Virus record (IMG/VR): IMGVR_UViG_3300018080_000148
Location: 25,923 to 89,922 of that record
DNA from: a virus
Strand: one strand, 5' to 3'
DNA: 64,000 nt
Made by a program: the position numbers and the translations under genes. Shown piece after piece: positions 11,359 to 48,291 of this stretch. Every line of letters starts with the position of its first letter. The first letter of the stretch is position 1. Under the pieces are notes generated by a model. That model ran no database searches. It was given only the letters and a program-made list of their open reading frames with translations, and was not told the origin of the DNA.

Positions 11359-11760
11359 AAAAAAGGGCCGCTTCCCTTAGTGGATACCTAGTTCTTTAAA
11401 GAACTACCGAGTCCTATAAGGCCCGGAAAATCCACAAGGTTACGGCTCTTGTGTGGACACGTTTTTTCCCAATGACCACACCTTTCAATTTTCCCCGATT
11501 TGCACCTCGTTGAAGATCCTCGTTCTAGGCTACTGACCCAAGATTTTGGATTACTCTCTGACGAGAGAACTAGGTATCCACGTAAACCCCTCCTTTTGGG
11601 AGGGGCAAGGACCAGGACGTAGCGACCATACAGGAAGCAGGACTAAGCTAAAGCAAATTCCCAACATCAACTACCTGTCCGGAGCCTGGAAGACAGTCTT
11701 GCGACTGCCCACTTGGTTTCACCAGGAAGAACGTTCACCCTCCTATTGCATACGCAGGTT
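11359..11760 (-). ncRNA. Candidate large structured RNA upstream of the polymerase gene
   Basis: About 400 nt without a convincing gene are full of helices. A 16-nt segment (11566-11581) is the exact reverse complement of 11380-11395 and closes a domain of about 200 nt. AGTTCTTTAAAGAACT is a perfect 16-nt palindrome at 11390-11405. CCCCTCC pairs with GGAGGGG at 11586-11606. CAGTC-GCAA-GACTG near 11704 has a GNRA tetraloop only when read on the minus strand. The minus-strand transcript would end at AAGGG-AAGCGG-CCCTT followed by U6 (about 11359-11379), a rho-independent terminator directly after the closing helix. I recognise no RNA family. Large phage RNAs such as GOLLD and ROOL are comparable in kind only. 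Confidence 0.5.
11452..11483 (-). repeat. 32-nt dispersed repeat, copy 2
   Basis: Identical to 6682-6713. Here the element is inside the domain closed by the 16-bp long-range helix of the candidate structured RNA, where its TGTGG and CCACA ends would form a hairpin arm. Confidence 0.7.
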
Positions 11761-40358: not shown

Positions 40359-40372
40359 TTCCACCTCCAAAG

Positions 40373-40457
40373 TACCCAGGGCGAGACTCGAACTCGCACC
40401 CCCGGAATGGGGACTAGGCCCTCAACCTAGCGTGTCTACCAATTCCACCACCTGGGC
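40373..40457 (-). tRNA. tRNA-Leu (GAG)
   Basis: Class II cloverleaf with acceptor GCCCAGG/CCTGGGT, anticodon loop TTGAGGG between CTAGG and CCTAG, a GC-rich variable arm and T arm GCGAG/CTCGC. Its first 44 nt overlap the 3' end of the SET-domain gene. CCA is not encoded. Confidence 0.95.
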
Positions 40458-40893
40458 GTATGAATTTCTTTTTTATTTTTGTCCTAATGGGCTTTTCTGG
40501 CGTTTGGCAATCCAACCTACTTGGGCTGCCGTAGTGGCCCAATATCTCTTCTCCTGATTTAATATCACGGTTAAAAATATATAGCACCCTGCCGTCATCT
40601 GTCTGGACTAAAGTCGCATTTTGTTGTCGCACGGTCGGTGCCTGATTGACGATGCCCCCAATTCCCATGGGAACCAAGCTGTGCTCTCTGCCATCGGCAA
40701 AAAACTTGTAGTTGTGAGCGTATTGTGTGCAGTTGTCTTCAAGAGACCCGTATTTCACCTTGGCTCCGATAACCTCGATGAAATCCCCTTTCTTCAGATC
40801 TACCAGGGCAAAGACGCCTCGGCCTGCATTCGGGATCGTGGAGGCTGCTATCCGGTATTTACGAAGGTTTTCTTCGGGCTCTTGGAAAATCAT
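40414..40893 (-). CDS. SET-domain protein ending inside tRNA-Leu (159 aa)
   Basis: This is a compact SET domain. NAGRGVFALVDLKKGDFIEV near residue 23 is the N-SET motif, GGIVNQAPTVRQQNATLV near 78 is the region that usually reads NHS, and FNRDIKSGEEILGHYG near 108 is the C-SET motif. SET proteins methylate lysines, so a phage version could target host or phage proteins. NQAP replaces the usual NHS, which may change activity. The last 15 residues are translated from tRNA-Leu sequence. Confidence 0.7.
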   Translation of the reverse strand: MIFQEPEENLRKYRIAASTIPNAGRGVFALVDLKKGDFIEVIGAKVKYGSLEDNCTQYAHNYKFFADGREHSLVPMGIGGIVNQAPTVRQQNATLVQTDDGRVLYIFNRDIKSGEEILGHYGSPSRLDCQTPEKPIRTKIKKKFIRPGGGIGRHARLRA

Positions 40894-40905
40894 TCCTTAA
40901 TAGAG

Positions 40906-41029
40906 TGGCCGGGACTGGAATCGAACCAGTGACCTTTGGGGGAACAGCTTGAGAGGTAACTATGAGCCTTTCGGCGTCGTGCAATCAAGCGTCTTGTCCC
41001 AATGCTCTACCAACGTGAGCTACCCGACC
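40906..41029 (-). tRNA. tRNA gene with 50-nt insertion in the anticodon loop (possibly Asn)
   Basis: All other parts of the cloverleaf are standard: acceptor GGTCGGG/CCCGGCC with A73, D arm GCTC/GAGC with ACGTTGGTA loop, anticodon stem TTGGG/CCCAA, variable AGGTC and T arm ACTGG-TTCGATT-CCAGT. The anticodon loop is 57 nt instead of 7. Inside it GCTTGA pairs with TCAAGC and GCC-GAAA-GGC makes a small hairpin. The only register with U33 places GUU as the anticodon, giving Asn, but then 37 and 38 are both C, which is unusual. It must be spliced or is non-functional. Confidence 0.7.
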
Positions 41030-41223
41030 TTATTTTTGCCCTCCCAACTGACTCCGTGCGTCACGCTGAGGTAACGACACAATTCGTCGGCTGCGTCTTG
41101 GGGGAGAGAGGCAATTCTGTCACCAAGCTCCCGAATGTAATCTTCCTCAAAAGCAGTTCCAGTGGTTGTTGTAGGCGGTTTGATTCCATCGCCTTGTGTT
41201 TGCGTACAACCGTATCCGTTCAT
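41020..41223 (-). CDS. Small hypothetical protein (67 aa)
   Basis: MNGYGCTQTQGDGIKPPTTT begins the protein and a helical second half (IRELGDRIASLPQDAADEL) follows. AGGAG lies 8 nt before the ATG. The stop codon lies 10 nt inside the 5' end of the following tRNA gene. Confidence 0.45.
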   Translation of the reverse strand: MNGYGCTQTQGDGIKPPTTTTGTAFEEDYIRELGDRIASLPQDAADELCRYLSVTHGVSWEGKNKVG

Positions 41224-41257
41224 AGACACCGCTCCTATTGATGGGGTTCGTTTTTAG

Positions 41258-41337
41258 TGAGCAGGGCAGGAATTGAACCTGCAACTACTGGTTGCGACAT
41301 CGGCTTTGTAACTGGTGGACTTTCGCCCACACCGCTC
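41258..41337 (-). tRNA. tRNA-like gene, anticodon not assigned
   Basis: T arm GCAGG-TTCAATT-CCTGC is clear and the ends pair (GAGCGG with CTGCTC, extended by flanking AGT/ACT). GTGG/CCAC could be the D stem, but its loop GCGAAAGT lacks the conserved GG. The anticodon arm cannot be folded with a 7-nt loop containing U33; GTTAC and GCAAC pair with one mismatch around 12 nt. It may be another tRNA with an insertion or a decayed copy. Confidence 0.5.
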
Positions 41338-41375
41338 ACTCTCCAGCGTGCTTACCAGAGCACCTCCCGCCCAAT

Positions 41376-41564
41376 TTAGCCGCCAAATTGGACTCGTGCG
41401 TAATCTGTCAAAAGGTGATGGATTCTTCGATGTGCCACTTTTTTGGCGTTAAAGTCTGCCAACTTGCCACCGAGGTAGGCATCAAGCAGTTCTTGGTCAG
41501 TCAATAACTCGGCCATGTCTGCGTTGATACTTCTGATTTTCGCTTTCGATACGTTGATAGACAT
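41376..41564 (-). CDS. Small hypothetical protein (62 aa)
   Basis: [20 protein letters not shown] begins a helical protein that ends in [14 protein letters not shown]. The stop is 38 nt upstream of the tRNA-like gene, and tRNA-Leu(CAG) ends 31 nt before its start. Function unknown. Confidence 0.45.
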
Positions 41565-41595
41565 CCTTTTTTCCTTATGCGGGCGGGGGATGTAG

Positions 41596-41679
41596 TGCCC
41601 CTGGCAGGACTCGAACCTGCACGGCCTTGCGGCCACAGCATCCTGAATGCTGCGTGTCTACCATTTCCACCACAGGGGC
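41596..41679 (-). tRNA. tRNA-Leu (CAG)
   Basis: Acceptor GCCCCTG/CAGGGGC, anticodon loop TTCAGGA between CAGCA and TGCTG, variable arm with GGCCGCAAGGCC and T arm GCAGG/CCTGC. It starts 1 nt after the stop codon of the membrane-protein gene at 41681. Confidence 0.95.
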
Positions 41680-41680
41680 A

Positions 41681-41920
41681 TTAGCTTGGGGGTGGGAACC
41701 CCGGATTGTCGTTCTTCTTTTTCTGTTTATCATCCTTGAATGTTGGTGTCCACGCCAACATGATCCAACATGTGATCCCAAACACTGCCAGTGTTACCGA
41801 AATCGACCACGGCAACATATTCACCTTCTCGGTCATCTTGAAGGCAACGGCGTCGGCTACGCCGAAGCCTCCTACGCAGATGGCCACTAAGATGGCAACA
41901 CTCTTTACAATTTTTATCAT
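41681..41920 (-). CDS. Small membrane protein (79 aa)
   Basis: Two membrane helices (VAILVAICVGGFGVADAVAF and ISVTLAVFGITCWIMLAW) are followed by a Lys/Asp-rich cytoplasmic tail and a Pro-rich end. GGAGAGGTCC precedes the start. It sits between two tRNA-Leu genes, 1 nt from one and 14 nt from the other. Confidence 0.55.
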   Translation of the reverse strand: MIKIVKSVAILVAICVGGFGVADAVAFKMTEKVNMLPWSISVTLAVFGITCWIMLAWTPTFKDDKQKKKNDNPGFPPPS

Positions 41921-41934
41921 GGACCTCTCCTAAG

Positions 41935-42016
41935 TAGCCCCGGAGGGAGTCGAACCCTCACGCCTTGCGGCACTGGATCTTAAATCCAGCGTGTCTACCG
42001 ATTTCACCACGGGGCC
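41935..42016 (-). tRNA. tRNA-Leu (UAA), copy 2
   Basis: Acceptor GGCCCCG/CGGGGCT, anticodon loop TTTAAGA between CTGGA and TCCAG, variable arm TGCCGCAAGGCG and T arm GAGGG/CCCTC. Unlike copy 1 at 22314, position 37 is G. A dispersed GTGTGG-element lies 10 nt upstream of its 5' end. Confidence 0.95.
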
Positions 42017-42025
42017 TTGCAACCG

Positions 42026-42047
42026 TTTTCCCCACTAGCCACACTTA
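42026..42047 (-). promoter_or_regulatory. Dispersed GTGTGG-element before tRNA-Leu (UAA)
   Basis: This 22-mer is identical to 43535-43556, which also precedes a tRNA-Leu. On the minus strand it reads TAAGTGTGGCTAGTGGGG followed by AAAA. It may be a promoter or processing element for the tRNA downstream. Confidence 0.5.
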
Positions 42048-42218
42048 TGGTGGAACGGCAAACATGCTGTAACATTCGATGCTCCGCTCCCTAAGGTCTC
42101 TTTGTTCTTCTTTGGAAAGCTTCTCGCAATCCTTGCAGGGTCCGTCACCGTTGAAGTGCTCTTCGGCGTACACCTCTAAACAGATTGGGCACTGAAATTG
42201 TATGGGGCCGAGGCTCAT
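42045..42218 (-). CDS. Small zinc-ribbon protein (57 aa)
   Basis: CPIC near residue 9 and CKDC near 27 form a zinc ribbon, followed by an acidic/basic helix (LSKEEQRDLRERSIE). The start at 42218 is 5 nt from the stop of the M23 gene. Function unknown; nucleic-acid binding is plausible. Confidence 0.5.
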   Translation of the reverse strand: MSLGPIQFQCPICLEVYAEEHFNGDGPCKDCEKLSKEEQRDLRERSIECYSMFAVPP

Positions 42219-42222
42219 TGTT

Positions 42223-42762
42223 TTACCTGGGGTTTTGTGCGCTTTCAATCAAGTGTGTTGTTGGATCAAGTAGGCCGAATGGTTGGCTCTCACCTTTCTC
42301 CCACACGCCGTTGCTCAGGAAGCCGTGGCGATGCATGGCAAGGTGGAGCATGGAGGTTGGTCTGCCCTTGTCCTTCTTGAGCACTCGTTTGACGTGCCCG
42401 ATCAGGTCGCCTTGTCGCACCTCTTTTTCCTGAATGTAGAACTTTTGTTTTCCCTCGACGGTGGATTCCCCGATAACTCGAAAGCCGTGGTGCTTGATTT
42501 CCCCATAAACTACGATCCCGCTATTGCCCGCAACTGATACGGCCCATGTGTTCTCCCACCAATCACACCCCGCCACTTTGCCCGTGAATGGCCGAATGTG
42601 GCAAAGCACTCCATCTTCTACGGCGAAGACTTCAGTTCCTTCAGGACAATAAAGATCCACGCCCTTGTGAACGTCATGCCGCCGCTCGATGCCAAAAGCG
42701 CCGACATGCGGCTTGATGGGTATCTCCACTTCCGAAGTAATGTCGATATACTGAAAAGACAT
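42223..42762 (-). CDS. M23-type metallopeptidase (179 aa)
   Basis: HDVHKGVDLYCPEGTEVFAV near residue 30 holds the H-x-x-x-D zinc motif, and SMLHLAMHRHG near 140 holds the H-x-H motif of LytM/lysostaphin-type peptidoglycan endopeptidases. There is no signal peptide, so export for lysis would need a holin, or it may be a virion wall-degrading enzyme. Its first 89 nt overlap the ParB-like gene. Confidence 0.75.
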   Translation of the reverse strand: MSFQYIDITSEVEIPIKPHVGAFGIERRHDVHKGVDLYCPEGTEVFAVEDGVLCHIRPFTGKVAGCDWWENTWAVSVAGNSGIVVYGEIKHHGFRVIGESTVEGKQKFYIQEKEVRQGDLIGHVKRVLKKDKGRPTSMLHLAMHRHGFLSNGVWEKGESQPFGLLDPTTHLIESAQNPR

Positions 42763-43078
42763 CGAGTTGGAAGTGGGCCCTAACTTCTTCATCTTCAATG
42801 GAAACAACCAAGTCACTGACCTCTCCTCTCACGCTGCGATAGAGGAAATCCTTCTCCACCAAAATATACTCATATTTACGCAAAAAGCGCCGTCCAGCCA
42901 GCCAAGCGGCAACGGTGCGGTGGTGTCCATTTTCGATTGCCATCGTACCGTCCGCCAGTCGAGCTATTTGGATTGGTTCTACGTATCCACCTTGCCTTAT
43001 CTCTTCCACTAGCTTCGGCAACTGGTGTGCTCGATTCAACCGGTGTTGTGTTGTTTTAAGTTTTGCAATGTCTATCAC
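42674..43078 (-). CDS. ParB/sulfiredoxin-fold protein (134 aa)
   Basis: LPKLVEEIRQGGYVEPIQIA near residue 20 and DGTMAIENGHHRTVAAWLAG near 43 match the ParB N-terminal fold, with GHHR as the nucleotide-binding box. It lacks the DNA-binding domain of true ParB. Free-standing versions in phages act as nucleases, CTPases or modifiers. It overlaps the M23 gene by 89 nt and the receiver-like gene by 4 nt. Confidence 0.65.
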   Translation of the reverse strand: MIDIAKLKTTQHRLNRAHQLPKLVEEIRQGGYVEPIQIARLADGTMAIENGHHRTVAAWLAGRRFLRKYEYILVEKDFLYRSVRGEVSDLVVSIEDEEVRAHFQLDVFSVYRHYFGSGDTHQAACRRFWHRAAA

Positions 43079-43443
43079 AGGCCACCCGCTCCATCTTGTT
43101 TGAGTCGCCTTTTTAGATTAGGGAATGGAACCTGTTCTACCTTGTAGTTGTGGCGAAGGGCATCTTCCATCCTTTGTGCGCCTCGCCTATTTGTCGAGTG
43201 GATGATGACCTTCTTTATTTGCGGCCTTTCTTGAGCAAGCCATTTTGCGGCTACTGCTCCATTTTTGCCCTCGTAACCCGGTGCCTCTTCCAAGTCGTGA
43301 TCGAGTAGGGCTAAATCCCATTCTCCTAGCACGACTCGACGCTTCAGGTCTCTAAATCTCCTACACACAATGGCGTAGGGGAAGTGTTTCAGGAGAAATT
43401 CCAACCGCACCTTCCAACGGTCTTCCAAAATTATTACGTTCAT
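43075..43443 (-). CDS. Cyclic-phosphate-processing receiver-like (cREC) protein (122 aa)
   Basis: VIILEDRWKVRLEFLLKHF near residue 3, WDLALLDHDLEE near 43 and KVIIHSTNRRGAQRMEDAL near 77 match the cREC family, a receiver-like domain in which LDHDL and HSxN are the hallmark motifs. The family has been linked to RNA repair and conflict systems, where it may open cyclic phosphates. Next to a tRNA array this suggests a link with cleaved-tRNA repair. It starts 3 nt after tRNA-Leu(CAA). Confidence 0.6.
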   Translation of the reverse strand: MNVIILEDRWKVRLEFLLKHFPYAIVCRRFRDLKRRVVLGEWDLALLDHDLEEAPGYEGKNGAVAAKWLAQERPQIKKVIIHSTNRRGAQRMEDALRHNYKVEQVPFPNLKRRLKQDGAGGL

Positions 43444-43445
43444 AG

Positions 43446-43530
<85 letters not shown>

Positions 43531-43534
43531 TTGT

Positions 43535-43556
43535 TTTTCCCCACTAGCCACACTTA
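43535..43556 (-). promoter_or_regulatory. Dispersed GTGTGG-element before tRNA-Leu (CAA)
   Basis: Identical 22-mer to 42026-42047, in the same position before a tRNA-Leu gene. It fills nearly the whole gap between the stop of the gene at 43557 and the tRNA. Confidence 0.5.
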
Positions 43557-44036
43557 TTACGCCGTTTCCCCACGCATGAACCTGCGAGCCATCTGCCAAC
43601 CCCTTTCTGTTGCCTCAAACCTCGCCACTGGCGAACTTTCTCTGCCGAAGTGTGGGTCGATTTGCTTGGCGTCATCGGCTGGGGCGTTGCCCTCGTAAAC
43701 CATGATCTTGTGGCTGTTCGGACAGTTTGGGTAATGAACCCACAGAGCCGTCCAGTAACACTCTTCTGCCCGCCGCAGGATCGTGAACACCTCTTCCTTC
43801 TCGTCGATCATCTTGATCGCTTGAAGATGTTCTGCCTGGATCACGAAATCCACGTCAGGGTCAAAGTCTGTCAAGTCGTTCATGCCGACCGCAAACAACA
43901 CCTTGTCGTCGTCCACATCAGCCAACACGATCACATCGCTTTTTGGTCCGCCCAAGAATTGGAATCTGCCAATTCTCTGAGGGTGGTGTGGGTGACCCGA
44001 TACAACCTTGTACTGTGTGTCATAGACCAGATTCAT
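43557..44036 (-). CDS. Hypothetical protein (159 aa)
   Basis: A soluble alpha/beta protein starting MNLVYDTQYKVVSGHPHHP, with two Cys near the middle and an RxxMRGE end. GGAG lies 6 nt before the ATG at 44036, and the start overlaps the upstream stop. Function unknown. Confidence 0.5.
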   Translation of the reverse strand: MNLVYDTQYKVVSGHPHHPQRIGRFQFLGGPKSDVIVLADVDDDKVLFAVGMNDLTDFDPDVDFVIQAEHLQAIKMIDEKEEVFTILRRAEECYWTALWVHYPNCPNSHKIMVYEGNAPADDAKQIDPHFGRESSPVARFEATERGWQMARRFMRGETA

Positions 44037-44311
44037 TCTAGACTCCATTCGTTGGGATGCGCCACTTCCAGTTCTTGCTCAGGAAGCCTTTCCTGATACA
44101 CTTCTTGGATTGACTGCCGCACCTTGAGCTTCTCTTCCATCGTCAACTCTCGATGAACCGTAAACTTCATCGTGACGATCTCACTTCTGAGACTCATCTT
44201 TTCGGGAAAGCCGAAACCGTGCATGGTCTCGTTGACCGAATCAACTATTTCCCCAACCGAGGAAAAGACCTTGCCCAGATTGCACGTGATGGGAATGAGA
44301 TACGTTGGCAT
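44033..44311 (-). CDS. Hypothetical protein (92 aa)
   Basis: A small alpha/beta protein: MPTYLIPITCNLGKVFSSVG at the start and a beta strand (EIVTMKFTVHREL) before a charged helix. AAGGAG precedes the start. The start is 15 nt after tRNA-Leu(UAG). Function unknown. Confidence 0.5.
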   Translation of the reverse strand: MPTYLIPITCNLGKVFSSVGEIVDSVNETMHGFGFPEKMSLRSEIVTMKFTVHRELTMEEKLKVRQSIQEVYQERLPEQELEVAHPNEWSLE

Positions 44312-44326
44312 GGTTTGCTCCTTCAG

Positions 44327-44408
44327 TAGCCGGGGCGGGACTCGAACCCGCACGCCTTGCGGCACAGGTTCCTAAAACCTGCGTGTCTGCCAATTTCACC
44401 ACCCGGCC
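44327..44408 (-). tRNA. tRNA-Leu (UAG)
   Basis: Acceptor GGCCGGG/CCCGGCT, anticodon loop TTTAGGA between CAGGT and ACCTG, variable arm TGCCGCAAGGCG and T arm GCGGG/CCCGC. The SRP RNA domain ends 2 nt before its 5' end, so RNase P cleavage here would also form the SRP RNA 3' end. Confidence 0.95.
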
Positions 44409-44410
44409 TC

Positions 44411-44456
44411 ACCGCCTTAGGGCTGCTTCGTTTCCGACCTGACCCGGTTCGGCGGC
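44411..44456 (-). ncRNA. SRP RNA domain IV (4.5S-like), minimal
   Basis: On the minus strand GGGTCAGGTCGGAAACGAAG followed by CAGCCC reproduces the conserved tip of bacterial SRP RNA. In E. coli 4.5S RNA the tip reads GGTCAGGTCCGGAAGGAAGC. The tetraloop here is GAAA closed by a G-C pair where E. coli has GGAA closed by C-G, which is a compensated change. The symmetric TCAG/AGCAG internal loop bound by Ffh is intact. GCCGCC pairs with GGCGGT to close a 46-nt hairpin. No longer arm is visible; a 13-codon frame ends at its 5' edge. It could bind host Ffh and redirect membrane targeting. Confidence 0.8.
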
Positions 44457-44493
44457 TAGACTTCGTTGACGACCTTGCGGAAGCCAACGACAG

Positions 44494-44658
44494 TCATGTT
44501 TCGTTCGTAAACACTTTGTGGATCTGAAAGCGAAGTATCGATAGCTCACGTGGGTGCTCACACTCCTCTTCCACCCATGCCTGAGCCTCTTCGTAGGTGT
44601 TTCTTTCTGCCCTGATTGTCGTCGAACCCCATTCTGTCACAATAAACTTCACTTTCAC
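44494..44658 (-). CDS. Small hypothetical protein (54 aa)
   Basis: A GTG start with GGAGA 5 nt upstream, encoding MKVKFIVTEWGSTTIRAERN, a Glu-rich helix and FQIHKVFTNET. An ATGA overlap leads into a 13-codon frame (44456-44497) that ends at the edge of the SRP RNA. Function unknown. Confidence 0.4.
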   Translation of the reverse strand: MKVKFIVTEWGSTTIRAERNTYEEAQAWVEEECEHPRELSILRFQIHKVFTNET

Positions 44659-44668
44659 GATTGTCTCC

Positions 44669-45004
44669 TTACATCGTCATTTCGTCAACATGCCCCGCAC
44701 TCACAGGGTCGTCGCCCTGGATAGCTGCGATTTTCTCGGCTGCCTCGTTGAGAACTTTGCTGATCTCCAACGCTTTTTCAAAATTCTGCTCCGTCCGCTT
44801 CGCCATCTCGGACAAATACACGGTGGAGAGATTCTGCATGAGTCCTATCATGCGGAAGTTGCACGCCATCATGGCCTTCAGTAGGTAGTCTTCTTGCGGA
44901 AACATGTTTTTATTGTACCCCATGACTAGATAGTTGTGAACCAAGTCTTTTGGTACTATCATCGAGAGGCCCGCCCCCATGGAAACGGGGTGGGCCTTGT
45001 TCAT
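44669..45004 (-). CDS. Hypothetical protein (111 aa)
   Basis: A Met-rich helical protein, MNKAHPVSMGAGLSMIVPKD at the start, with a long second helix (RTEQNFEKALEISKVLNEAAEKI interrupted here for length). The start lies 3 nt after the 3' end of tRNA-Phe with insertion. Function unknown. Confidence 0.5.
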   Translation of the reverse strand: MNKAHPVSMGAGLSMIVPKDLVHNYLVMGYNKNMFPQEDYLLKAMMACNFRMIGLMQNLSTVYLSEMAKRTEQNFEKALEISKVLNEAAEKIAAIQGDDPVSAGHVDEMTM

Positions 45005-45007
45005 GAG

Positions 45008-45102
45008 TGGGCCGGGCTGGAGTCGAACCAGCGACACCTGGATTTTCATTCATGGGGTTGCCTGACCCCTGTCCAGTGCTCTACCAACTGAGCTACCGAC
45101 CC
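45008..45102 (-). tRNA. tRNA-Phe (GAA) with 22-nt hairpin insertion in the anticodon loop
   Basis: The cloverleaf is otherwise perfect: acceptor GGGTCGG/CCGGCCC with A73, D arm GCTC/GAGC with AGTTGGTA loop, anticodon stem CTGGA/TCCAG, variable GTGTC and T arm GCTGG-TTCGACT-CCAGC. The anticodon loop has 29 nt: C, then a segment containing GGGGT-CAGGCA-ACCCC, then TGAAAA. Removing 22 nt after the first loop base leaves CTGAAAA, the standard Phe loop with U33, GAA and A37. The insertion is far too small for a group I intron. Confidence 0.85.
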
Positions 45103-45107
45103 ATATT

Positions 45108-45320
45108 TTAGCAGCAATCAATATAAACCAATGGGTCCATATCGGGGTCCATTTGGTGACCGTTCTTGAGATTGTGGGCGACTTTATATCCCACTGTGCG
45201 AGCAAACCGTTCAAGATCTTCGTGAGTCACCCCATCGAATACTCTTGCATCTTGGTCCCACTTTTTTTTCAGATCATCGTGAACAGACTCGCCTGCCAAT
45301 GCTGTGCTATATGCGCTCAT
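45108..45320 (-). CDS. Small hypothetical protein (70 aa)
   Basis: MSAYSTALAGESVHDDLKKK begins the protein, a helix with AHNLKNGHQMDPDMDP follows and it ends DCC. Its stop is 5 nt upstream of the tRNA-Phe 5' end. Function unknown. Confidence 0.45.
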   Translation of the reverse strand: MSAYSTALAGESVHDDLKKKWDQDARVFDGVTHEDLERFARTVGYKVAHNLKNGHQMDPDMDPLVYIDCC

Positions 45321-45341
45321 TGCGTTTTCCTTTCTGAAGAG

Positions 45342-45426
45342 CGGAAGCGGAGGGAGTCGAACCCCCAAGGCGGTTAAGCTCGTCCCGGTTCGAGCGGGGT
45401 GCAGTCGCCAATCTGCTTGCGCTTCC
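45342..45426 (-). tRNA. tRNA-Ser (CGA)
   Basis: Acceptor GGAAGCG/CGCTTCC with G73, anticodon loop CTCGAAC, long variable arm and T arm GGGGG/CCCTC. The stop codon of the upstream gene lies 1 nt before its 5' end. Confidence 0.9.
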
Positions 45427-45427
45427 G

Positions 45428-45721
45428 TTACTGATCGTATCCAACATTTGATGCTTCATCGATTTCTACATCGATGCCTCGGTCAGTGACCCAAAGACTA
45501 TGTATCAGCCGCCCGATGACGGTGCTCTCGAAGTCGTCCAGTTTGGGGCGGATCTCTCCGATTTGGTCCATTAACGGGTCGGCCAAGTCATCTCGGTCAT
45601 TGGCCAAGTGTTCGTTTGCCTCAACGATCAGTTTGATGCAGCGTTCATAATTGCTCGGTCTTCCACGTTTCGTGGTTGACTTTGCCGCTGTCTTTTTCTT
45701 CGTCGTTTTCTTCTTCGCCAT
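45428..45721 (-). CDS. Hypothetical protein with Lys-rich N-terminus (97 aa)
   Basis: MAKKKTTKKKTAAKSTTKRG begins the protein with a histone-tail-like composition, then RPSNYERCIKLIVEANEHL and an acidic second half. DNA or RNA binding by the tail is plausible. Gap 45728-45867 upstream holds a possible promoter and a short hairpin. Confidence 0.45.
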   Translation of the reverse strand: MAKKKTTKKKTAAKSTTKRGRPSNYERCIKLIVEANEHLANDRDDLADPLMDQIGEIRPKLDDFESTVIGRLIHSLWVTDRGIDVEIDEASNVGYDQ

Positions 45722-45849
45722 TATCATAATCCTCTAGCAAAAAGTGTAGTATAGTACGCACTTGCGCACATTTTTCGCCAAAAGGATTACGACTTTGACG
45801 TTTTAAGTCAAGGCCAACTTCTATACCAAATTGTCAAAGATCAAATCAA

Positions 45850-45864
45850 GCTGGCATTGCCAGC
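45850..45864 (-). terminator. Possible hairpin after the abnormal tRNA-Tyr
   Basis: GCTGGC pairs with GCCAGC across 3 nt, followed on the minus strand by TTGATTTGAT. It is a weak terminator candidate just after three consecutive tRNA genes. Confidence 0.35.
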
Positions 45865-45867
45865 AAG

Positions 45868-46004
45868 TGGGAGAGGTAGGAGTCGAACCTACAAGCCCTT
45901 TCGGGCGTCACGTTTACAGCGTGCTTACCTTGCCAATGGTTGTATGCTTCTAATGTAGGGGACGGTTGCCCGTCCAAGTCTTGAAAGCGTTTAGTTACTC
46001 TCCC
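45868..46004 (-). tRNA. tRNA-Tyr (GTA) with about 55-nt insertion before the D arm
   Basis: Acceptor GGGAGAG/CTCTCCC with A73, anticodon loop CTGTAAA between GCACG and CGTGA, variable arm CGCCCGAAAGGGCTT and T arm GTAGG/CCTAC are normal. D arm ACC-ATTGGCAA-GGT is also recognisable, but 57 nt instead of 2 lie between the acceptor strand and the D stem. That segment contains GGACGG-GCAA-CCGTCC, a 6-bp hairpin with a GNRA loop. A second, normal tRNA-Tyr lies at 46853. Confidence 0.7.
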
Positions 46005-46008
46005 GTTG

Positions 46009-46125
46009 TGGACCGAGCAGGAGTTGAACCTGCATCCTCGCCTTCCAGGGCGCTATGTTACTCGCTGAATCACCGGCGTATTATGTACACTAGCCCACCG
46101 GCTATCAGTTACACACCATCGGTCC
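46009..46125 (-). tRNA. tRNA-like gene with insertion, anticodon not assigned
   Basis: Acceptor GGACCGA/TCGGTCC is a perfect 7-bp match and T arm GCAGG-TTCAACT-CCTGC is normal, but the gene is 117 nt long. TAGCC-GGTG-GGCTA forms a hairpin in the 5' half. Near the T arm CGCC and GGCG could close a 6-nt loop CTGGAA. No standard 7-nt anticodon loop fits. It lies 4 nt from the abnormal tRNA-Tyr and 2 nt from tRNA-Cys. Confidence 0.55.
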
Positions 46126-46127
46126 AG

Positions 46128-46206
46128 AGTCGCCGGGAGGATTCGAACCTCTTACCACGAGTTTTGCAGACTCGCTCCGAGCCATTAGGATTTAGGTTCC
46201 GACGAC
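46128..46206 (-). tRNA. tRNA-Cys (GCA), with 7 extra nt before the D arm
   Basis: Acceptor GTCGTCG/CGGCGAC with T73, anticodon loop CTGCAAA between CGAGT and ACTCG, T arm GAGGT/ACCTC-like with TTCGAAT loop. Nine nt (GAACCTAAA) instead of two separate the acceptor strand from the D stem TCC/GGA. The first 15 nt overlap the 3' end of an HNH endonuclease gene. Confidence 0.8.
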
Positions 46207-46776
46207 ATTCAGCTTGTTGCCTTTGGGTAGGTAGTAAAATTTCCAATTCTTGAATGTTTCTGCCATACATTTTTTCCTGAGTTGTTCTACTGGGAACTTC
46301 TTAGGGAAGGTGTGTATGGTGCGATGACAATTGGGGCACACTACTACCAAATTATCATGTGAATCTGTTCCTCCTTTTTTCTTGGGCACAATATGGTGGA
46401 TGTCGCATGCTGCTTCATTCCACCCACACAGTACGCACTTAATCTTTGCTCTCTTGAGGATCTTTTGCTGTGTTCTTTTTGAAAACTCAAGTATGCTTTT
46501 GGCGTCTTCTTTGCAATATGCTACTTTCCTTTTACATTGTTCGCAGTGTTTTTTCCTGCTTTGACGGATCTTTTTACTCTCGAATGCTTTCCCGCATTTT
46601 TCACAAGTGTATTTGTGTAGCTCGTGGGGGTGCGATGCTGCCCATGCGGCAACCGAACTAGCAATTTTTTCTCTCGTTTGTTTGTTGTGACTTCTGCTCT
46701 TGGCGCACGATTCACTGCAAAATCGCCCGGAGCCAAATGTCCCATCATGTTTTTTGTTGCATTTTTCACACTTCAT
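46192..46776 (-). CDS. HNH endonuclease in the tRNA array (194 aa)
   Basis: CEKCNKKHDG near residue 3 with FCSESCAKS, a second finger CEKCGKAFES with CEQCKRK, and the nuclease core CVLCGWNEAACDIHHIVPKK near 115 followed by NLVVVCPNCHRTIH near 142 make a zinc-finger-rich HNH enzyme of the homing type. It ends 15 nt inside tRNA-Cys and is directly followed by three tRNA genes with abnormal length. It may target tRNA-gene sequence and so relate to the insertions. Confidence 0.85.
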   Translation of the reverse strand: MKCEKCNKKHDGTFGSGRFCSESCAKSRSHNKQTREKIASSVAAWAASHPHELHKYTCEKCGKAFESKKIRQSRKKHCEQCKRKVAYCKEDAKSILEFSKRTQQKILKRAKIKCVLCGWNEAACDIHHIVPKKKGGTDSHDNLVVVCPNCHRTIHTFPKKFPVEQLRKKCMAETFKNWKFYYLPKGNKLNVVGT

Positions 46777-46852
46777 TGTTCAGCCTCCGATTTATCTATC
46801 GGAAACTGAACTTGTTTTGAGTGTAAAAAAATTCACATTTTATCAGGTTCAG

Positions 46853-46938
46853 TGGGCCGAGAGGGACTTGAACCCCCAAGCACCTTACGGTGACGTGGTT
46901 TACAGCCACGGACGCTACCAATTACGCTCTATCGACCC
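46853..46938 (-). tRNA. tRNA-Tyr (GTA), normal
   Basis: Acceptor GGGTCGA/TCGGCCC, anticodon loop CTGTAAA between CGTGG and CCACG, variable arm CACCGTAAGGTG and T arm GGGGG/CCCTC. The last base of the upstream gene's stop codon is its first base. Confidence 0.95.
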
Positions 46939-47210
46939 TACTCTTTCTTGGGCGGCTCCTTCGGCAAGGAGTCACCTGTGTTGTCTCTATGTCTCCTTAT
47001 CATTTGTTCTGGTGTATCGGGGATTTCAGTCGGCTCTCCTGCTGATAAAACCACCCAACCATTTGTCCAGTGTCCGTAATCGTCTTTCAGCTTGACGACG
47101 CCCCCAACCTTTGCAAACTTCTCTGGGATGTATGACACCATCGTGGAGATGCCGGTTCGGGTTTTTCTTTCCATATAACACTGGCAATACTTTACGGTTT
47201 TCTTGCTCAT
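46938..47210 (-). CDS. Hypothetical protein (90 aa)
   Basis: The protein starts MSKKTVKYCQCYMERKTRTG, contains a beta-rich middle (GGVVKLKDDYGHWTNGWVV) and a Pro/Lys tail, and ends exactly at the tRNA-Tyr 5' end. Function unknown. Confidence 0.5.
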   Translation of the reverse strand: MSKKTVKYCQCYMERKTRTGISTMVSYIPEKFAKVGGVVKLKDDYGHWTNGWVVLSAGEPTEIPDTPEQMIRRHRDNTGDSLPKEPPKKE

Positions 47211-47235
47211 TTTCGCATCGTAATGCTCCTTTCAG

Positions 47236-47318
47236 CGGAGGCGACAGGACTCGAACCTGCAAGGCTTTCGCTCGACGGTTTTCAAGACCGCTGCCGTCGC
47301 CAATCGGCTTGCGCCTCC
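47236..47318 (-). tRNA. tRNA-Ser (TGA)
   Basis: Acceptor GGAGGCG/CGCCTCC with G73, anticodon loop CTTGAAA between GCGGT and ACCGT, variable arm GAGCGAAAGCCTT and T arm GCAGG/CCTGT. Confidence 0.95.
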
Positions 47319-47375
47319 TCGCTAGGGCCGAGGGGCGGTGGATCGTCCATGCCGCCCGAGGGCCCGTATAGTTTG

Positions 47376-47723
47376 TTATGGATGCACCTCAAAGTGAATC
47401 CCAGAGCCATGGCTTCCATGGTGGCTCCCATTTCGGCAGTACGGACAAGTGCGATAATCACGCCCATGACGACAGTTGTTGAAATCATGTCGGCAGTGAG
47501 GGCAGCTAACCGCACTGTAACCGTGCCTGCACCTATATGCGTTTCGGCAGTGAGGACATGTTCGATAATCATATCCGTGACGACATCTGGCTACGTGTGG
47601 CTGATGATGTCCACGTTCAATAATTACCGGCCTTTGCTGCCTTGGCTGGCAGTCGTGATGACAGGAACAACCTGTCACGAAAGCCAGCAACAGTAGAACA
47701 AATAACGAAGTGACAACTTTCAT
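47376..47723 (-). CDS. Lipoprotein with three Cys/His repeats (115 aa)
   Basis: A lipobox (LAFVTGCSC, Cys near residue 19) marks a lipoprotein. The mature part contains three repeats of 17-18 residues, CRHGYDYRTCPHCRN, CRHGYSAVSCPHCRH and CRHGRDYRTCPYCRN, each with C-x-H and CPxC. Each repeat could bind a metal. His-rich ends flank the array. Such a protein would sit on the outer face of the membrane. A surface-exclusion or metal-binding role is possible; no family is recognised. Confidence 0.65.
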   Translation of the reverse strand: MKVVTSLFVLLLLAFVTGCSCHHDCQPRQQRPVIIERGHHQPHVARCRHGYDYRTCPHCRNAYRCRHGYSAVSCPHCRHDFNNCRHGRDYRTCPYCRNGSHHGSHGSGIHFEVHP

Positions 47724-47773
47724 CTTCCCTCCTATTGAAAGAGTCCGTCACTTGTATCTACTGTTATTACTAG

Positions 47774-47845
47774 TGGAAAGGGTAGGAATCGAACCTACGA
47801 CGCCCTGGTGTTCAGTCAGGCGCTCTACCACTGAGCTACCTTTCC
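47774..47845 (-). tRNA. tRNA-Phe (GAA), with A31-C39 mismatch
   Basis: Acceptor GGAAAGG/CCTTTCC with A73, D arm GCTC-AGTGGTA-GAGC, anticodon loop CTGAACA between CCTGA and CCAGG, T arm GTAGG-TTCGATT-CCTAC. The last stem pair is A-C and position 37 is C, both unusual. The first 10 nt overlap the stop of the upstream gene. Confidence 0.8.
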
Positions 47846-48009
47846 ATTGCTCTTTGGTTTAGTCTCCTGTTTTCCTTTCTCTTCTCTTTCTTGGCCACAC
47901 GACTTTCGCTGACCTTTTTCTGGTGAGCAAACCACCCCGCCCAGTCCATACGGCCAGTCGGCATGCCGCCACCGGAACCGGGCATCTTCTTGATACGTTT
48001 GTATCGCAT
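47836..48009 (-). CDS. Small basic protein (57 aa)
   Basis: MRYKRIKKMPGSGGGMPTGR begins the protein and AKKEKRKENRRLNQRAMER ends it, so it is strongly basic and may bind nucleic acid. It starts 14 nt after tRNA-Ser and ends 10 nt inside tRNA-Phe. Confidence 0.45.
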   Translation of the reverse strand: MRYKRIKKMPGSGGGMPTGRMDWAGWFAHQKKVSESRVAKKEKRKENRRLNQRAMER

Positions 48010-48022
48010 GGCTTCTCTCCAG

Positions 48023-48111
48023 CGGAGGGCATGGGAATCGAACCCACCGCTCCCCGTAGGGAGCACCTGCTTTCCAAGCAGGCCCGGCTAACCAATATCC
48101 GGCTACCCTCC
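48023..48111 (-). tRNA. tRNA-Ser (GGA), copy 2
   Basis: Acceptor GGAGGGT/GCCCTCC with G73, anticodon loop TTGGAAA between CCTGC and GCAGG, long variable arm CTCCCTACGGGGAG and T arm GTGGG/CCCAT. Confidence 0.95.
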
Positions 48112-48159
48112 AAGTTTAGTTGCAACTTTCAATTGAAGTTGCGACTTTCAATTCCATGC

Positions 48160-48191
48160 AGCCAAATGTAACAAAAGTGTTATATTTGGCT
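48160..48191. other. 14-bp hairpin between two tRNA-Ser genes
   Basis: AGCCAAATGTAACA pairs with TGTTATATTTGGCT with one mismatch and a 4-nt loop. A second hairpin GCAACTT/AAGTTGC lies at 48122-48142. It may guide processing between tRNA-Ser(GCU) and tRNA-Ser(GGA). Confidence 0.4.
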
Positions 48192-48203
48192 ACACTTAAC
48201 AAG

Positions 48204-48291
48204 CGGAAGCGACAGGAATCGAACCTGCACCGGTAGTTGGCCGGAACGCTTTAGCAGAGCGCCGCTACGAACCAATATTAGCCTCGCTTCC
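48204..48291 (-). tRNA. tRNA-Ser (GCT)
   Basis: Acceptor GGAAGCG/CGCTTCC with G73, anticodon loop CTGCTAA between GCGCT and AGCGT, variable arm TCCGGCCAACTACCGGT and T arm GCAGG/CCTGT. The first 27 nt overlap the 3' end of the upstream gene. Confidence 0.95.

Follow-up and report, generated by a model that had tools for sequence, protein, structure and literature searches.

Phage tRNA genes with short inserts and permuted halves, including a tRNA-Phe with a 22-nt hairpin in its anticodon loop, suggest a cut-and-rejoin route

The window, a 64,000-nt stretch of viral DNA, belongs to an 89,922-bp virus record that is itself a fragment. For the most part, its proteins are collinear with those of bases 355,000-405,000 in LR756511, an uncultured huge phage of 595 kb. 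A protein search for close relatives found nothing, and neither did a strict Phe pattern. A tRNA cluster at 40372-48291 contains mostly class II tRNAs (Leu, Ser, and Tyr), and LR756511 likewise separates its class II tRNAs, at 427-437 kb. CT follows N73 in most tRNAs of the window cluster, i.e., CCA is not encoded. A match to the bacterial small SRP (4.5S) RNA at 44391-44474 on the minus strand (41.9 bits against a cut-off of 40) overlaps the 5' end of a tRNA-Leu and represents a phage-encoded SRP RNA. This match and the long variable arm of tRNA-Tyr point to a bacterial host. LR756511 was seen by eye to carry a tmRNA-like gene as well. In the window, an odd tRNA-Cys (46128-46206) has an HNH endonuclease gene (46192-46776, minus strand) immediately upstream. 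The relevant features of the window are:

45008-45102, minus strand: interrupted tRNA-Phe(GAA) gene of 95 nt (Rfam RF00005, 56.8 bits; ARAGORN with introns)
45071-45102, minus strand: its 5' exon, positions 1-32, 3' end ...CTGGAC (alignment to the uninterrupted BcepSauron tRNA)
45049-45070, minus strand: 22-nt insert AGGGGTCAGGCAACCCCATGAA (placed by homolog identity and ARAGORN deletion scores)
45054-45069, minus strand: insert hairpin GGGGT-CAGGCA-ACCCC (folds; the plan GGGT-N6-RCCC recurs in the LR756511 Met and G002 Gln inserts)
45008-45048, minus strand: 3' exon from U33 (TGAAAA...), with the anticodon GAA at 45045-45047
47773-47845, minus strand: second tRNA-Phe(GAA), uninterrupted, with loop CTGAACA, an A31.C39 mismatch, and C37
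40906-41029, minus strand: tRNA with an unclassified anticodon-loop insert of ~50 nt, Asn-like GUU, and C37 (Rfam 46.5 bits; ARAGORN i(33,50))
41258-41372, minus strand: tRNA-like gene with a 51-nt anticodon loop (3' end TCGCAA), insert unclassified (acceptor/T-arm scan, fold)
46009-46125, minus strand: tRNA-like gene with an unclassified D-loop insert of ~44 nt (acceptor/T-arm scan, fold)
45868-46004, minus strand: tRNA-Tyr(GUA) with one copy of a ~50-nt element near positions 8-10
45938-45989, minus strand: the ~50-nt element in tRNA-Tyr, GCTT..ACTTGGAC-loop-GTCCCC.AC..AAGC.TACAA (CM R1, 62.6 bits, E 1.3e-13, this copy belonging to the model's own input)

The interrupted tRNA-Phe with its insert is a genuine observation. 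The RF00005 match spans exactly 45102-45008 on the minus strand and covers the full model (1-71) at 56.8 bits, with a gathering cut-off of 29 bits, and Infernal counted 28 loop bases where the model expects 6. All stems are fully paired (acceptor, 7/7; D, 4/4; anticodon, 5/5, CTGGA/TCCAG; T, 5/5), and the anticodon loop, CAGGGGTCAGGCAACCCCATGAATGAAAA, is 29 nt long. Infernal and the stem pairing thus bear out the initial annotation, made from the letters alone, which had described a 29-nt loop in an intact cloverleaf. It had also claimed that removal of 22 nt after the first loop base leaves CTGAAAA; this is indeed the loop without AGGGGTCAGGCAACCCCATGAA, and deletion of AGGGGTCAGGCAACCCCATGAA gave the top ARAGORN score among all 22-nt deletions (121.2; runner-up, 119.0). 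The GGGGT/ACCCC that it noticed in the insert forms the hairpin GGGGU-CAGGCA-ACCCC. With introns allowed, ARAGORN returned tRNA-Phe(GAA) interrupted by 22 nt; at its default setting (no introns) it missed the gene. Folded alone, the insert is unexceptional (z -1.4).

An uninterrupted homolog was found in a distant phage, the Burkholderia phage BcepSauron, whose tRNA-Phe aligns to the joined exons without gaps at 93% over 68 nt. Placement of the insert at C32|U33 gave the highest identity to this tRNA (65/73; runner-up placement, 64), which makes 45049-45070 the best position for it. Changes relative to BcepSauron are compensated in the anticodon and acceptor stems, and the body of the tRNA-Phe is therefore conserved as a tRNA. 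This lone 73-nt homolog locates the insert; excision is not thereby demonstrated. The interrupted gene could be dispensable because the same phage has a second tRNA-Phe. The uninterrupted copy, with its C37 and A31.C39 mismatch, is less canonical than the interrupted one after excision.

On sequence comparison, the insert of the window is not unique. LR756511 has a 21-nt hairpin insert in a CAU tRNA (Met), C32|ACGGGTTTATCAACCCGCGAT|U33, and in a 390-kb phage, G002, the insert AAGGGTCAAACAGCCCATAAA lies within the anticodon of a tRNA-Gln, at C34|U35. The stems of this tRNA-Gln are intact and its acceptor has U1-A72, which is typical of tRNA-Gln; an uninterrupted tRNA-Gln(CUG) in LR756511 (82% over 72 nt) provides the empty site. 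The G002 tRNA-Gln is predicted to be unable to decode with the insert in place, and no other case argues for removal as strongly, since no anticodon exists while the insert remains. The Phe and Gln inserts are alike at 16 of about 21 positions in a by-eye alignment, with substitutions that are all purine transitions, and the Phe, Gln, and Met inserts have in common the ends C|A...[A/U]|U and the hairpin GGGU-N6-RCCC. These three are the only members of the 21-22-nt class; no additional ones came up in two further pattern scans. A hairpin-based pattern matched just normal Met tRNAs and chance sequences, and an insert-sequence pattern found only the G002 Gln again, the remainder being coding or chance DNA. 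A hairpin copy at LR756511 123169 sits in a reading frame and was discarded as chance, as was the one archaeal match in a single scan of genome contigs.

Other insert families were found in phage tRNA genes. A viral scan returned another tRNA-Phe with a 22-nt insert of different sequence before U33, as well as 30-nt inserts at 32/33 in tRNA-Asn and tRNA-Lys (TAGGTRTGATAAGTAARTTCAYACRARG.), in which the hairpin shows a compensatory change from A-U to G-C. In many phages, inserts of ~40 nt split the anticodon stem at 28/29 or 29/30. In most of them, one and only one excision among the positions tried gives a paired anticodon stem, U33, and purine 37; several related genes yielded none, so the family is not uniform. 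The hairpin of the ~40-nt inserts covaries (n = 11 inserts): both sides changed in 7/7 pairs, with 18 double-changed cells compared with 5.2 +- 1.7 after shuffling and at most 10 in slid controls. One member comes from KVP40, a cultured Vibrio phage, and bears the annotation tRNA-Pseudo-3; phage 6E35.1a has the same gene, still interrupted and also annotated as pseudo. By eye, 5/7 acceptor pairs are changed on both sides between the KVP40 and 6E35.1a genes; this joint change, unlike the expectation for dead genes, argues for selection on the interrupted tRNA. The KVP40-type gene is near-identical across about 30 Vibrio phage records, and a KVP40-type interrupted gene is present in the record of phage nt-1, which infects Vibrio natriegens. 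The KVP40 pseudo-tRNAs at AY283928 179301-181213 (L191) are tRNA genes carrying ~40-nt inserts, and at least one reads as tRNA-Asn upon unique excision. A candidate in another record (L126) was rejected as a partial duplication, and a tRNA-like gene on the minus strand of L127, from about 3349, has a long UUCG hairpin in place of the anticodon loop and no anticodon.

The tRNA genes of the same huge phages also contain the ~50-nt element, GCTT..RACTTGGAC-loop-GTCCCCnAC..AAGCTTACAAAC, located mainly in or next to the D-arm. Across 21 copies from six records, it has a strongly conserved core (RACUU, CCnAC, and UACAAAC) and two covarying helices, with 38 double-changed cells compared with 13.5 +- 3.5 after shuffling. 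A covariance model detected the element in 6/6 records, most strong hits being its training set, and Rfam gave no match up to E 10 in the one cluster tested. No single pair of splice boundaries yields canonical D-arms in all tRNAs that carry the element and no uninterrupted homolog was found to fix the site; therefore, the element is not claimed as an intron. Some of the tRNAs with the element in LR756511 and in records L070 and L080 have A or C for U33, and some have D-loops without GG. A conserved protein of ~78 amino acids (MENNVVVNANGPQLHLRYDGQ...) is encoded in the element-rich tRNA clusters of LR756511 (about 289070-288835), L068, L070, L080, and L079, with no Pfam or PHROG matches.

The element also occurs in a permuted form, in the order 3' half, enclosed RNA, and 5' half, which keeps its outer helix across 50-130 nt (mean 8.0 bp compared with 4.3 when partners were shuffled among units; n = 14 permuted units, one of them a likely chance pair). 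The enclosed RNAs are whole tRNAs, short hairpins, and circularly permuted tRNAs. The last are found once each in three phages and read as tRNAs as circles, not linearly:

LR756511 290836-290709: circularly permuted tRNA-Lys(UUU), acceptor strands joined by GCAA
L079 12092-11962: circularly permuted tRNA-Leu(UAA), acceptor strands joined by ACCAACAT
L080 about 11395-11520: circularly permuted tRNA-Ile(GAU), acceptor strands joined by GCAA

Circular-mode ARAGORN alone is unspecific within tRNA arrays, so the claim of permutation rests on the order of the halves, the 7/7 acceptor pairing, and the enclosing element halves. Given their gene order, the three would become tRNAs only if their ends were joined. 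In the relatives, CCA is encoded immediately before the 5' half in several of the tRNAs that permuted elements enclose. A further permuted element in LR756511 (about 290548-290240) encloses an RNA that by eye resembles 23S rRNA domain IV (ACGGTCATAAGGTAGCGA ... GTAATGACGGCCA); an Rfam search of it gave no match.

When the Phe and Met precursors are folded computationally, the insert hairpin extends the anticodon stem, and U33-A38 together with two insert bases bulge out on the 3' side. The 3-nt bulge/4-bp helix/3-nt bulge motif (BHB) is absent; the folds show a hairpin and one large asymmetric bulge. No splicing endonuclease domain (tRNA_int_endo, PF01974) scored over the cut-off in six phage records, where G004 alone gave a sub-threshold match of 13 bits, and RtcB was absent in 6/6. 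In LR756511, genes for a T4 Rnl1-like ligase (PF09511) and an AAA_33 kinase lie 0.3 kb apart, and Rnl2-like ligases are encoded too; T4 Rnl1-like ligases are also encoded by G002 and by KVP40 (PF09511, E 2e-34 in KVP40). No ligase or removal machinery was detected in the window's own record, a 90-kb fragment.

The best explanation, to which we give about an even chance, is that the 22 nt may be a short intron-like element, cut out and resealed by protein enzymes. This reading is the best supported because of the exact empty sites, the homologous insert that splits an anticodon, and the covarying insert families elsewhere. Of the two ideas in the initial annotation, a new kind of short intron that has a removal route to itself is thus retained, with removal as a prediction: the insert is probably, if by a modest margin, removed in vivo, and the exact enzymes, including the putative cutter and ligation by Rnl1, are less certain than removal itself. 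The phage would transcribe the interrupted tRNA-Phe, and the continuation of the stem into the insert hairpin would bring the junctions C32|A and A|U33 to one asymmetric bulged region. A putative endonuclease would cut both junctions, the acceptor and anticodon stems would hold the two tRNA halves together after cutting, and sealing would most simply be performed by a T4-type heal-and-seal pair (5'-kinase and RNA ligase 1), as encoded in the relatives. The product would be an ordinary tRNA-Phe. The insert families and permuted genes, cultured phages included, suggest an unrecognized tRNA cut-and-rejoin route in bacterial viruses. More tentatively, and with a somewhat less than even chance, there may be a general phage tRNA splicing that extends from huge phages to KVP40-type relatives of T4, with several families of introns (20-50 nt) placed in the D-arm and in the stem and loop of the anticodon arm, permuted genes processed via circular RNA, a putative cutting enzyme, and phage ligases.

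The main rival is that small hairpin elements were inserted in surplus tRNA genes and never removed, so that the genes are non-functional leftovers. The pseudo-tRNA annotation of KVP40-type cases in GenBank, the uninterrupted tRNA-Phe in the same record, and the failure to find removal machinery in the window's 90-kb record are all in keeping with dead genes. However, the interrupted tRNA-Phe has every stem intact and exact insert ends, acceptor stems coevolve in the interrupted genes of KVP40 and 6E35.1a, insert hairpins covary, and the near-identical gene is shared by about 30 Vibrio phage records; we consider this rival unlikely, at somewhat more than one chance in five. It is less probable still that the insert is retained and that its hairpin keeps host anticodon nucleases away from the loop, or that the RNA acts as bait for them. 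Mutations in phage tRNA loops have been argued to evade such nucleases (PMC10264068), and the inserts are frequently at or adjoining the loop, but decoding is not expected with a 29-nt loop or with the split anticodon of the tRNA-Gln, and many inserts are located in a stem or D-arm. The initial annotation had offered a nuclease-resisting decoy as its second idea; no positive evidence emerged for this decoy, which also fits badly with the G002 Gln, whose anticodon is lost for as long as the insert stays in.

Self-removal, in which the inserts would be tiny ribozymes able to splice or cleave unaided by protein, is quite improbable. Ribozymes often show strongly conserved cores, covarying helices, and permuted forms, and the ~50-nt element has a conserved core, two covarying helices, and a permuted form. 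Against this, the element has no Rfam match and no fixed splice boundaries, and 22 nt is below the size of known splicing ribozymes; we know of none as small. The window derives from an IMG/VR-type virus record, probably a metagenome assembly, so that an assembly or sequencing artifact has to be considered; it is extremely unlikely because independent records, GenBank LR756511 included, contain homologous inserts with the same ends, and insert families occur in cultured Vibrio phages.

Archaeal and eukaryal tRNA introns are usually located one nucleotide 3' of the anticodon, with a bulge-helix-bulge. The phage insert is like these protein-spliced introns in size, archaeal ones usually being 12-25 nt (PMC4090602), and in precise excision from the anticodon arm, which for the phage we infer. 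It differs in its site (32/33) and in having no 3-4-3 BHB and no tRNA_int_endo over the cut-off. Group I introns interrupt bacterial tRNA anticodon arms and are much longer self-splicing RNAs; the insert is 22 nt against a criterion of about 200 nt or more for group I/II introns. Scanned with cmscan at E values up to 1, the region gave no intron-class match at the insert and one 15-bit group II chance hit elsewhere. T4 Pnkp and Rnl1 repair tRNAs broken in the anticodon loop by anticodon nucleases. Homologs of Rnl1 are present in LR756511 and KVP40. The T4 system performs damage repair, and we know of no description of insert excision by it. In red algae and archaea, permuted tRNA genes carry the 3' half before the 5' half and require end joining, whereas those of the phages are enclosed by halves of a ~50-nt element without an Rfam match. 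Theta (HDV-like) ribozymes associate with tRNAs (PMC10879173) and would be recognized by a nested pseudoknot of HDV type adjoining the tRNA end; Rfam scans gave no HDV family match.

Phage tRNA introns are already on record from Lak megaphages, where they were termed enigmatic (Devoto et al., 2019; PMC6784885). They are alike in being unclassified short inserts in huge-phage tRNA genes and differ in including nested tRNAs; covarying families and permuted genes are not reported there. A pattern search of the Lak-A2 tRNA regions did not find the searched motifs, although, being pattern based, it is compatible with distant kinship. The pseudo-tRNAs of KVP40 and its relatives (AY283928 and MW824377) resemble the window gene in the interruption of the anticodon arm and in the textbook arm left by excision; they differ in the ~40-nt insert at 28/29-29/30 and a CAGCAA-like motif, and they have been treated as pseudogenes, not introns. 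The interrupted tRNA-Phe, treated in the initial annotation as an isolated case, is less so in view of the Lak introns and the KVP40-type genes filed as pseudo-tRNAs. A literature search limited to open-licence articles found none on these insert families, on KVP40-type inserts as introns, or on permuted phage tRNA genes.

If the inserts are removed, cut-and-ligate tRNA splicing would occur beyond archaea and eukaryotes, in phage-infected bacteria also; general phage splicing, if true, would be the first case on the bacterial side of tRNA splicing that depends on protein. The permuted phage tRNA genes would bring an algal and archaeal gene arrangement to viruses. Removal would also mean that Rnl1/Pnkp-type enzymes of phages have another function in addition to repair, genes now annotated as pseudo-tRNAs in well-known cultured phages would prove to be real, and the question would be testable in ordinary laboratory phages.
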